A stretch of 41,650 bases of DNA from a virus: IMG/VR virus record IMGVR_UViG_3300023171_000023, positions 1-41,650 of that record. The stretch is one strand, 5' to 3'. The position numbers were made by a program, and so were the translations under genes. Within the stretch, counting starts at the first letter, position 1, and every line of letters starts with the position of its first letter. Positions 32,367 to 34,781 of this stretch are shown in pieces. The notes beneath the pieces were generated by a model. It saw only the letters and a list, made by a program, of their open reading frames with translations. It searched no databases and had not been told where the DNA came from.

Positions 32367-32382
32367 CTGAAAATATTTTCAG
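32367..32382. promoter_or_regulatory. Palindromic operator candidate
   Basis: CTGAAAATATTTTCAG is a perfect 16-bp palindrome that directly abuts the -7 element of the rightward promoter, between the two divergent promoters. This is the position expected for a repressor site controlling both early clusters. Confidence 0.6.
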
Positions 32383-32390
32383 TATATTTG
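32383..32390 (+). promoter_or_regulatory. Promoter of the rightward early cluster
   Basis: TATATTTG immediately follows the palindrome. Transcription would begin about 32397, only 8 bases before the tRNA-like element. Confidence 0.65.
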
Positions 32391-32404: not shown

Positions 32405-32518
32405 GGAAGCGTGGCGAAATGGTAAACGCTAAGTACAGTATAAACATAGACCCAAATAAACTGTATTAACCGAATGGCGGTCGATAGGTATTTGCAGGTT
32501 CGATTCCTGCTGGTTCCA
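32405..32518 (+). tRNA. tRNA-Leu-like element with abnormal anticodon arm
   Basis: The 5' arm begins GGAAGCGTGGCGAAATGG and pairs with TGGTTCC near 32517 (six of seven positions, one G-G). The D arm (32414-32429, loop with GG) and the T arm (GCAGG-TTCGATT-CCTGC) are canonical. The TGGCGAAAT, GGTA, ACGCTA order resembles Leu tRNAs. In place of a 5-bp/7-base anticodon arm is a stem of about 8-9 bp (TAA-G-TACAGT with ACTGTATTA) and a 20-base loop without a recognisable anticodon. A long variable region carries an ACCG/CGGT stem. CCA is not encoded (ends A-CA). It is about 20-30 bases longer than a normal long-arm tRNA, so it may be a degenerate tRNA or a tRNA-like regulator. It ends 23 bases before the next ATG. 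Confidence 0.6.
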
Positions 32519-32541: not shown

Positions 32542-32751
32542 ATGCCCGAAATTAAAGAAACATCCGCACAGGAAATTGAACGTCTGTGTTTAGAAAACAG
32601 TTTGGACGTTAAACAGGTGCTTAGGCTTGCCGACGTAGAATCCAGAACCTTCCAGAACTGGAAGAAAAAAGATCCTGAATCGATCGAAATTAAAAACAGG
32701 ATATTAGCTAAAATCAGCGAAATGTCTGCCAGTAAATCTGAAAGTTTATGA
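32542..32751 (+). CDS. Small helix-turn-helix-like regulator
   Basis: 69 residues, helical. DVKQVLRLADVESRTFQNWKK (residues 23-43) reads like a helix-turn-helix with a recognition helix (RTFQNWKKKDP). It is the first gene of the rightward early cluster, after the tRNA-like element, so it is a reasonable candidate to bind the palindrome at 32367. It overlaps the next gene by 4 bases. Confidence 0.65.
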   Translation: MPEIKETSAQEIERLCLENSLDVKQVLRLADVESRTFQNWKKKDPESIEIKNRILAKISEMSASKSESL

Positions 32752-33251: not shown

Positions 33252-34781
33252 ATGAGCTTAAAACTTCGCCACTATCAACAAACCGGAGTTAACGGAATAC
33301 GGGAATGCTTCAGGCGTAAAATTAAATCCGTATTATTTGTACTCGCCACAGGCGGCGGTAAAACTGTGGTTTTCACGTACTTAGCACAGCAATCATCCCT
33401 TAAAAAAAAACGCGTTCTAATACTCGTACACCGCATAGAATTACTACGTCAAACATCATCCGCACTGCTTAAATTCGATGTAGAGCATGGGATGATAAAT
33501 CCGCAGTACACTCCAAACTTTAATACCAACGTCCAGGTTGCAAGCGTACAGACAATTATTAAACGCCTTAACTATATGACTTCGGTTAATTGGGAGCCGG
33601 ATTTAATTATCGTAGACGAAGCGCACCACGGAACAGCGGGAAGCTGGCGTAAAATCATAGACCATTTTTCAAACGCTTTGGTACTTGGCGTAACAGCTAC
33701 ACCTATACGTGCAGATGGTCAGGGATTAGGCAGGCAATGGGGCGGGTTATTCGACGACCTTGTAGAAGGGCCTAGCGTTATGGATTTAATAAACGAGGGT
33801 TATTTGGTTAAGCCGAGAATATTTACACCGCCTAACGAATTGGATTTATCTGATATAGGTACTTCAATGGGTGATTATAAAAAAGATGATTTAGCGAAAT
33901 TAGTTGACAAACCAACTATTACAGGCAGCGCAGTTGAACATTACTCAAATTTATGCGCCGGCACTCCTGCTGTTGTATTCTGCGTAAACGTAGCACACGC
34001 TGAACACTCCGCAGAGCAATTCAGGCAGGCAGGATTTAGGTTTTACGCAGTCGATGGCTCAATGGATGATGATAAGCGTAAAACAATATTAGGCGGTTTA
34101 GCTGACGGTTCTGTACAAGGTGTTTGCAGCTGTGACCTGATAAGCGAGGGAACAGATATACCTGCAATTGGCTGCGCTATTTTATTACGCCCAACGCAAA
34201 GTAAGGGTTTGTACTTGCAACAGGTAGGGAGGGCGCTAAGACCTTGTGACGGCAAGGAATACGCTTTTATATTAGACCATGTCGGAAATACTATCGCTCA
34301 CGGTTTACCGTATCAAGATCAGGATTGGTCACTTGAAGGCGAACGCAAAAAACGCGGTGCTAAAAAACAGGAAACCGCCGTAAGGGTTACGCAATGCCTT
34401 AGTTGCTTCGCGGTACATGAGCCTGCGCCCGTATGTCCTGAATGTGGACACGTTTATCCGATACGCGATACCACACCGAAACAGGTTGAAGGTAAATTGC
34501 AGGAAATTACAGAGGTGGACATTATTAAGAAGCACAAACGCCAGGAAGTAGGGCGTGCCAGTACGTTAGAAGAATTGGTTAAGATATCGAAAGAACGAGG
34601 TTACGACCCGAAGTGGGCAACGATACAGTATATGTTAAAGGCTAAAAAATTAGAAAAAATAATGCCTAAAATGCCTGTAATTGTTGAGGCGGTACCGGTT
34701 GTAGCGCCTGAATTGGAAGCGGAAACTGAACTGGTAAATCACGAGGCAGAACATGAATTTAGTAACGATTTAGAATTTTAG
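33252..34781 (+). CDS. SF2 DEAD/DEAH helicase with zinc ribbon
   Basis: 509 residues. Motif I ATGGGKT (32-38), motif II DEAH (about 122), motif III TAT, and motif VI QQVGRALRP (about 324) define a superfamily 2 helicase of the RecQ/RecG-like restriction-type group. A zinc ribbon (CLSC and CPECG) lies near residues 380-396, followed by about 110 charged residues. It probably unwinds DNA during replication start or recombination. It lies ahead of a DNA-binding protein, exonuclease and primase in the same strand. Confidence 0.9.
   Translation: MSLKLRHYQQTGVNGIRECFRRKIKSVLFVLATGGGKTVVFTYLAQQSSLKKKRVLILVHRIELLRQTSSALLKFDVEHGMINPQYTPNFNTNVQVASVQTIIKRLNYMTSVNWEPDLIIVDEAHHGTAGSWRKIIDHFSNALVLGVTATPIRADGQGLGRQWGGLFDDLVEGPSVMDLINEGYLVKPRIFTPPNELDLSDIGTSMGDYKKDDLAKLVDKPTITGSAVEHYSNLCAGTPAVVFCVNVAHAEHSAEQFRQAGFRFYAVDGSMDDDKRKTILGGLADGSVQGVCSCDLISEGTDIPAIGCAILLRPTQSKGLYLQQVGRALRPCDGKEYAFILDHVGNTIAHGLPYQDQDWSLEGERKKRGAKKQETAVRVTQCLSCFAVHEPAPVCPECGHVYPIRDTTPKQVEGKLQEITEVDIIKKHKRQEVGRASTLEELVKISKERGYDPKWATIQYMLKAKKLEKIMPKMPVIVEAVPVVAPELEAETELVNHEAEHEFSNDLEF

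Follow-up and report, generated by a model that had tools for sequence, protein, structure and literature searches.

The window is the whole stretch of 41,650 nucleotides that was analysed (positions 1 to 41,650 of the IMG/VR virus record IMGVR_UViG_3300023171_000023). On its plus strand, a putative rightward early promoter with a Bacteroidota-type -7 box (TATATTTG, 32383-32390) is followed by a tRNA-like element (32405-32518) and by the first gene of an early operon, encoding a 69-aa HTH-like regulator (32542-32751). The box starts 22 nt upstream of the element, and 23 nt lie between the end of the element and the regulator ATG at 32542, as the initial annotation had counted. Immediately upstream of the box is a perfect 16-bp inverted repeat, CTGAAAAT/ATTTTCAG (32367-32382, CTGAAAATATTTTCAG), which is operator-like and may act as such; different palindromes occupy this place in the viral relatives L124 and L128. 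The regulator has no Pfam or PHROG match. The operon continues with a DEAD/ResIII helicase (33252-34781, plus strand; PF04851, PHROG 16) and a primase, as indicated by the Pfam/PHROG scan.

A tRNA body without an anticodon

The Rfam tRNA model RF00005 matches 32405-32518 on the plus strand from end to end (model positions 1-71 of 71) with 33.3 bits, above the cut-off of 29, which places the tRNA-Leu-like element exactly where the initial annotation had put it. The covariance-model search proposed there thus recovered the tRNA body, and with it an insert of 59 nt between the D and T arms, where about 17 nt are usual (Rfam alignment). The Leu-type D arm, GCG-AAATGGTAAA-CGC (32414-32429), has a GCG/CGC stem, and the T arm, GCAGG-UUCGAUU-CCUGC (32494-32510), forms 5/5 pairs and is directly preceded by U48. 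The acceptor strands GGAAGCG (32405-32411) and TGGTTCC (32511-32517) form 6/7 pairs; the arms are tRNA-like as first described, with a G5-G68 mismatch and a G7-U66 wobble in the acceptor that had gone unmentioned. The 3' strand runs on into the discriminator A73 (32518) and C74 (32519), CCA is not encoded, and base -1 is T, in agreement with the class consensus U(-1).

In the anticodon position, RNAfold predicts an 8-bp stem, AGUACAGU/ACUGUAUU, with a 20-nt loop (32432-32467; strands 32432-32439 and 32460-32467). The stem and loop had been described before, and the base then taken for a bulged G is part of a G-U pair. A variable-arm hairpin, ACCG-AAUGG-CGGU, follows at 32469-32481. Its GGUC could alternatively pair with GACC in the large loop (32449-32452). 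This GACC/GGUC kissing pair is not significant alone (p 0.37; crossing-helix score rank 0.05), and a pseudoknot is not supported for the window's own inside. The minimum free energy of the element, taken alone, is unremarkable (z -0.96).

In its acceptor, D arm and T arm the element is a cloverleaf body (RF00005); it lacks the 5-bp anticodon stem, the 7-nt loop and the anticodon of a functional tRNA. ARAGORN calls zero tRNAs in the whole window, and the 20-nt loop contains no anticodon, so normal decoding is precluded, as had been noted. A body finder based on acceptor pairing, T arm and D loop returned the element as its sole match in the window, and matched 2 times when the window was dinucleotide-shuffled 200 times. 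The tmRNA covariance model RF00023 has no match in the window, and the inside of the element has neither an Rfam intron match nor a homologue among viral contigs; the 11 matches to it all apparently fall in coding regions, and their surroundings are in no case tRNA-like. Searches of whole elements against phage records with blastn gave no match, or cellular tRNA-Leu only. As regards a possible attachment site, no integrase was recognised among the proteins scanned, and the whole element, with both halves, sits between promoter and regulator.

Five viral relatives of the window (L124-L128) were retrieved via the helicase. All have a similar -7 box at the same place and, as judged by eye, a regulator homologue behind the same promoter; L122 and L123 were rejected as carriers of regulator homologues, being chance coding matches. 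In L124, L125 and L127 the promoter is directly followed by the regulator, and in L126 one small gene separates the two; none of the four has an element. At exactly the same position, L128 carries an element of Leu type, 180 nt long, with 7/7 acceptor pairs and an inside unrelated to that of the window's element. The comparison with related phages proposed in the initial annotation thus shows an element that is optional and specific in position, with an inside that differs even among relatives. To the left of the promoter, L127 (5380-5560) and L128 (5290-5400) carry short tandem repeats (GGTAAAGGTTGCGCCCTCTTGAACG; CTAAGGTCTGCGCCA), possibly of the pentapeptide type.

A widespread class of viral elements

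Viral contigs were searched with a pattern in which a Leu D arm and a T arm are separated by 48-78 free bases. Only D-arm and T-loop bases were fixed; neither the acceptor nor bases -1 and 74 were selected. At least 120 viral contigs match. Among the matches listed, 96 of 122 elements have 7/7 acceptor pairs and 9 more have 6, and the T stem is fully paired (5/5) in 115 of 122. Acceptor sequences are wholly different between elements, and pairing is nonetheless kept. Base 48, the partner of A15, is U in 107 of the 112 well-formed elements listed. Only 79 of these 112 carry discriminator A, which led us to reject general leucylation of the class; it argues against leucylation, not against processing. 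ARAGORN calls a tRNA in 3 of the 122 listed. The elements are numerous and largely missed by tRNA finders. A wider survey of the same contigs also revealed bodies of class I that lack a normal anticodon arm, for example in L010, L015 and L021. The anticodon-arm classifier used scored 73/73 host tRNAs as canonical, and shuffled contigs yielded none.

A pattern of this kind gave 84 matches in bacterial genomes. Many of these are duplications from assembly, N-gaps or genuine tRNAs whose variable arm is long; likely prophages are among the remainder. Two isolated phages carry elements: that of the Bacteroides phage BS-TP3 (21345-21454 of L258; 27702-27811 of the phage record) reaches 53.9 bits with Rfam, and that of the Riemerella phage PJN03 (22677-22808, minus strand) falls below the Rfam threshold. 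Both are unannotated in the phage records. We found no account of such phage elements in Rfam or the open-access literature, most subscription journals lying outside the search, and the class is apparently undescribed.

Bases -1 and 74 border the cuts made by RNase P and RNase Z. Among the matches listed, U occupies position -1 in 74/110 elements (67%); at -2 and -3 its share is about 33%. Position 74 is C in 94/110 (85%), against 12% C at 75. Ordinary tRNA genes on the same viral contigs have similar values, U(-1) in 79/116 (68%) and C74 in 105/116 (91%). The tRNA genes of five Bacteroidota host genomes have C74 in 55/55 and U(-1) in 23/55, with CCA as a rule not encoded. Of all the observations, the conservation of -1U and C74 speaks most strongly for a handling of the elements as tRNA precursors.

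The elements tend to lie at gene ends. The ATG of a frame of at least 40 codons follows 8-40 nt downstream in 45 of the 109 elements listed, compared with 8 of 109 on the opposite strand, and all 45 of these ATGs lie on the sense strand, 13-37 nt from the element end. A stop codon occurs 0-40 nt upstream in 49 of the 109 listed, compared with 30 on the opposite strand. The closeness to start codons may partly reflect the density of phage genomes. In L109, five elements are placed between successive small genes. Several elements, including that of the window, lie directly at a promoter, with the box 11-22 nt upstream, and about 20% of non-canonical elements are found within 150 nt of another tRNA body and not beside a gene.

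Structured sequences also accompany the elements. A hairpin of the form TGACRG-stem-GGAAAGAC-stem-CAAAY recurs 5-30 nt upstream of elements in unrelated phages (L002, L005, L017, L023, L035, L047, L076, L082, L105, L118); its complementary stem varies and the loop GAAAGA is fixed. A second leader hairpin (L010, L016, L021, L048, L059) consists of an outer stem, an internal loop UGG/UAG and a GUGA-capped inner stem. On the 3' side, L258 (21455-21660), L021 (after 7408, minus strand), L257 (22480-22676) and the L148 homologue share a structured-looking non-coding stretch, GTGAGG..GAG..CCCTC-TTTA followed by a TCCCG..CGGGA hairpin.

Exchangeable insides

In most elements the inside bears no relation to those of the others. 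Compared with shuffled insides, crossing helices are in excess (mean z -0.89; 27/99 at p<=0.05, among the matches listed); typically, the loop of an anticodon-position stem pairs with a stretch 5' of the T arm. Nested helices are likewise in excess over shuffles (mean z -0.69), and the statistic therefore shows structure more surely than topology. By inspection, pairs covary between L010, L076 and L254: the stem GAGTA/TACTC is constant, and the second helix is GTTGTAAT/ATTACAGC in L010, GAGCTTT/AAAGCTC in L076 and GTAATCAC/GTGATTAC in L254. L017 and L108, which have entirely different acceptors, covary in three helices, again by inspection. These patterns point to covarying pseudoknots in some families.

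Homologous loci differ chiefly in the middle. Between the Riemerella prophage L148 and phage PJN03, 291/301 upstream positions and 25/26 positions of T arm and acceptor are identical, compared with 48/108 inside. In Bacteroides, L021 and L174/L180/L186 have flanks, D arm, acceptor and T arm in common at one position, and unrelated insides; the inside of L180 at that position recurs in a different element of L021. In both cases the frame stays and the insert is exchanged as a cassette.

Probable processing and possible roles

The best explanation, with a probability of about 0.55, is that the window element is a non-decoding tRNA body belonging to this class, which is transcribed early and excised by host RNase P and RNase Z in the manner of a t-element. 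Body, maturation-site signature, position, orientation and variable inside are read directly from the sequence, and from them we infer transcription, cleavage and purpose. Transcription from the early promoter would reach the element first. Its acceptor stem, elbow and cleavage-site bases would be recognised by the host's RNase P and RNase Z, which would cut the element out and leave the regulator mRNA with a leader of about 23 nt. Excision from the early transcript seems most likely because conservation falls on the parts that RNase P, RNase Z and the CCA enzyme recognise; this reading is weakened by the G-G mismatch in the window's acceptor. The anticodon and variable arms would have been replaced by an exchangeable structured insert with no part in decoding, and the freed tRNA-like RNA could be put to further use.

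Such a cleavage signal would be akin to plant mitochondrial t-elements. These tRNA-like sequences lie at the ends of mRNAs, where RNase P and RNase Z cut them; they receive a CCA tail and stay uncharged (PMC11658184 and works cited therein). Like them, the phage elements have a tRNA-like body without translational role, lie in sense orientation at gene ends, in the window as across the class, diverge in the middle and do not encode CCA. As in tRNA genes, the cleavage-site bases -1U and C74 are conserved. Unlike t-elements, which belong to plant mitochondrial genomes and are homologous to their tRNAs, the window comes from a virus record, and more than 100 elements occur in many phages, here in phage and bacterial genomes; their insides are replaced by other structures, with likely pseudoknots in some families and cassette exchange, and their cleavage is predicted from sequence. 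As mere punctuation between genes, excision is less convincing, because in the window and a few other cases the element is transcribed first and has no upstream gene to separate. The roughly one fifth of elements near another tRNA body also fit a product RNA better than punctuation. Tandem and promoter-proximal cases favour a product RNA, and gene-flanking cases favour the cut.

More tentatively, the tRNA body may be a constant self-processing frame for exchangeable inserts in viruses of Bacteroidota and other bacteria, giving modular, stable, non-decoding RNAs, possibly decoys in a contest between phage and host over tRNA. The engineered tRNA scaffold, a processed tRNA body in which foreign RNA replaces the anticodon arm, is built alike; the elements differ in being natural and viral. 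Canonical phage tRNAs have the same body and the same -1U/C74 flanks and sometimes stand in the same arrays, whereas the elements have no anticodon arm and do not decode. Phage tRNAs are usually explained by codon use or by the replacement of cut host tRNAs. Elements that keep all but the anticodon fit neither explanation, and it seems that tRNA bodies serve phages in some way other than decoding. Resemblance to tmRNA (RF00023) extends to tRNA-like ends, pseudoknots and the absence of decoding, but the elements have a normal D stem, a length of about 100-130 nt and no recognised tag ORF. Viral tRNA mimicry is also known from plant viruses, where tRNA-like structures sit at the genome 3' ends of RNA viruses; the phage elements, in contrast, are internal in DNA phages and have an ordinary acceptor.

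A decoy is a minority possibility, in which an early, stable, anticodon-less tRNA body occupies or absorbs host enzymes acting on tRNA or escapes anticodon nucleases, and the inside varies by an arms race. Proposed targets are defence nucleases and tRNA-end-modifying toxins acting on bodies or 3' ends. The hypervariable inside, swapped as a cassette within a constant frame, is consistent with this, as is the placement in early or accessory operons, sometimes in tandem and, in the window, next to the promoter. In addition, evasion of tRNA-targeting defences is reported for canonical phage tRNAs (PMC10264068, PMC11555353). However, known tRNA countermeasures act by decoding, which is impossible for these elements, the variation of the inside could be neutral, and no defence or partner gene is linked to them: their neighbours, read by eye, are ordinary phage replication, recombination and methyltransferase genes.

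It is unlikely that the fold stays on the mRNA as a cis-acting leader and controls the downstream gene through translation, stability or HK022 put-like antitermination. The order promoter, element, first gene in the window and L128, the promoter boxes just upstream of several other elements and the common spacing of 13-32 nt to an ATG would suit a leader; an uncut RNA, however, would not need conserved cleavage-site bases. Control of this particular regulator, as first suggested, is weakened by the four relatives that keep promoter and regulator without the element, and elsewhere elements precede many unrelated genes.

The initial annotation had also considered a decaying tRNA, which we regard as improbable. 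One acceptor mismatch, the missing anticodon and an inside without homologue would fit a degenerating tRNA-Leu gene in the window. Against this, more than 100 elements keep the body and both maturation-site flanks although their acceptors have diverged, the inside alone varying freely; shuffled sequence yields none, and homologous elements show covariation in their insides. For the class as a whole, decay is unlikely, though the window's mismatched member, taken by itself, may be a decaying one. A precursor of functional tRNA-Leu, its inside spliced or trimmed, is the least probable reading: the body is of Leu type and group I introns occur in tRNA-Leu elsewhere, but the inside is far below group I intron length, has no Rfam intron match and is not bordered by conserved, exon-like anticodon-arm sequence.

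A few bodies show other architectures. Two class-I elements, at L172 4548 and L021 5200 (minus strand), contain a second T arm on an extended anticodon stem, with two tRNA elbows on a single stem; the inside of the former also holds a D arm in permuted order. In L109 (4270-4460), a long hairpin is inserted in the D loop and not in the anticodon arm. Leu-type bodies in L012, L084 and L057 have a long variable arm and an anticodon loop of the normal 7 nt, with GTT (Asn) as anticodon, and are possible missense tRNAs.
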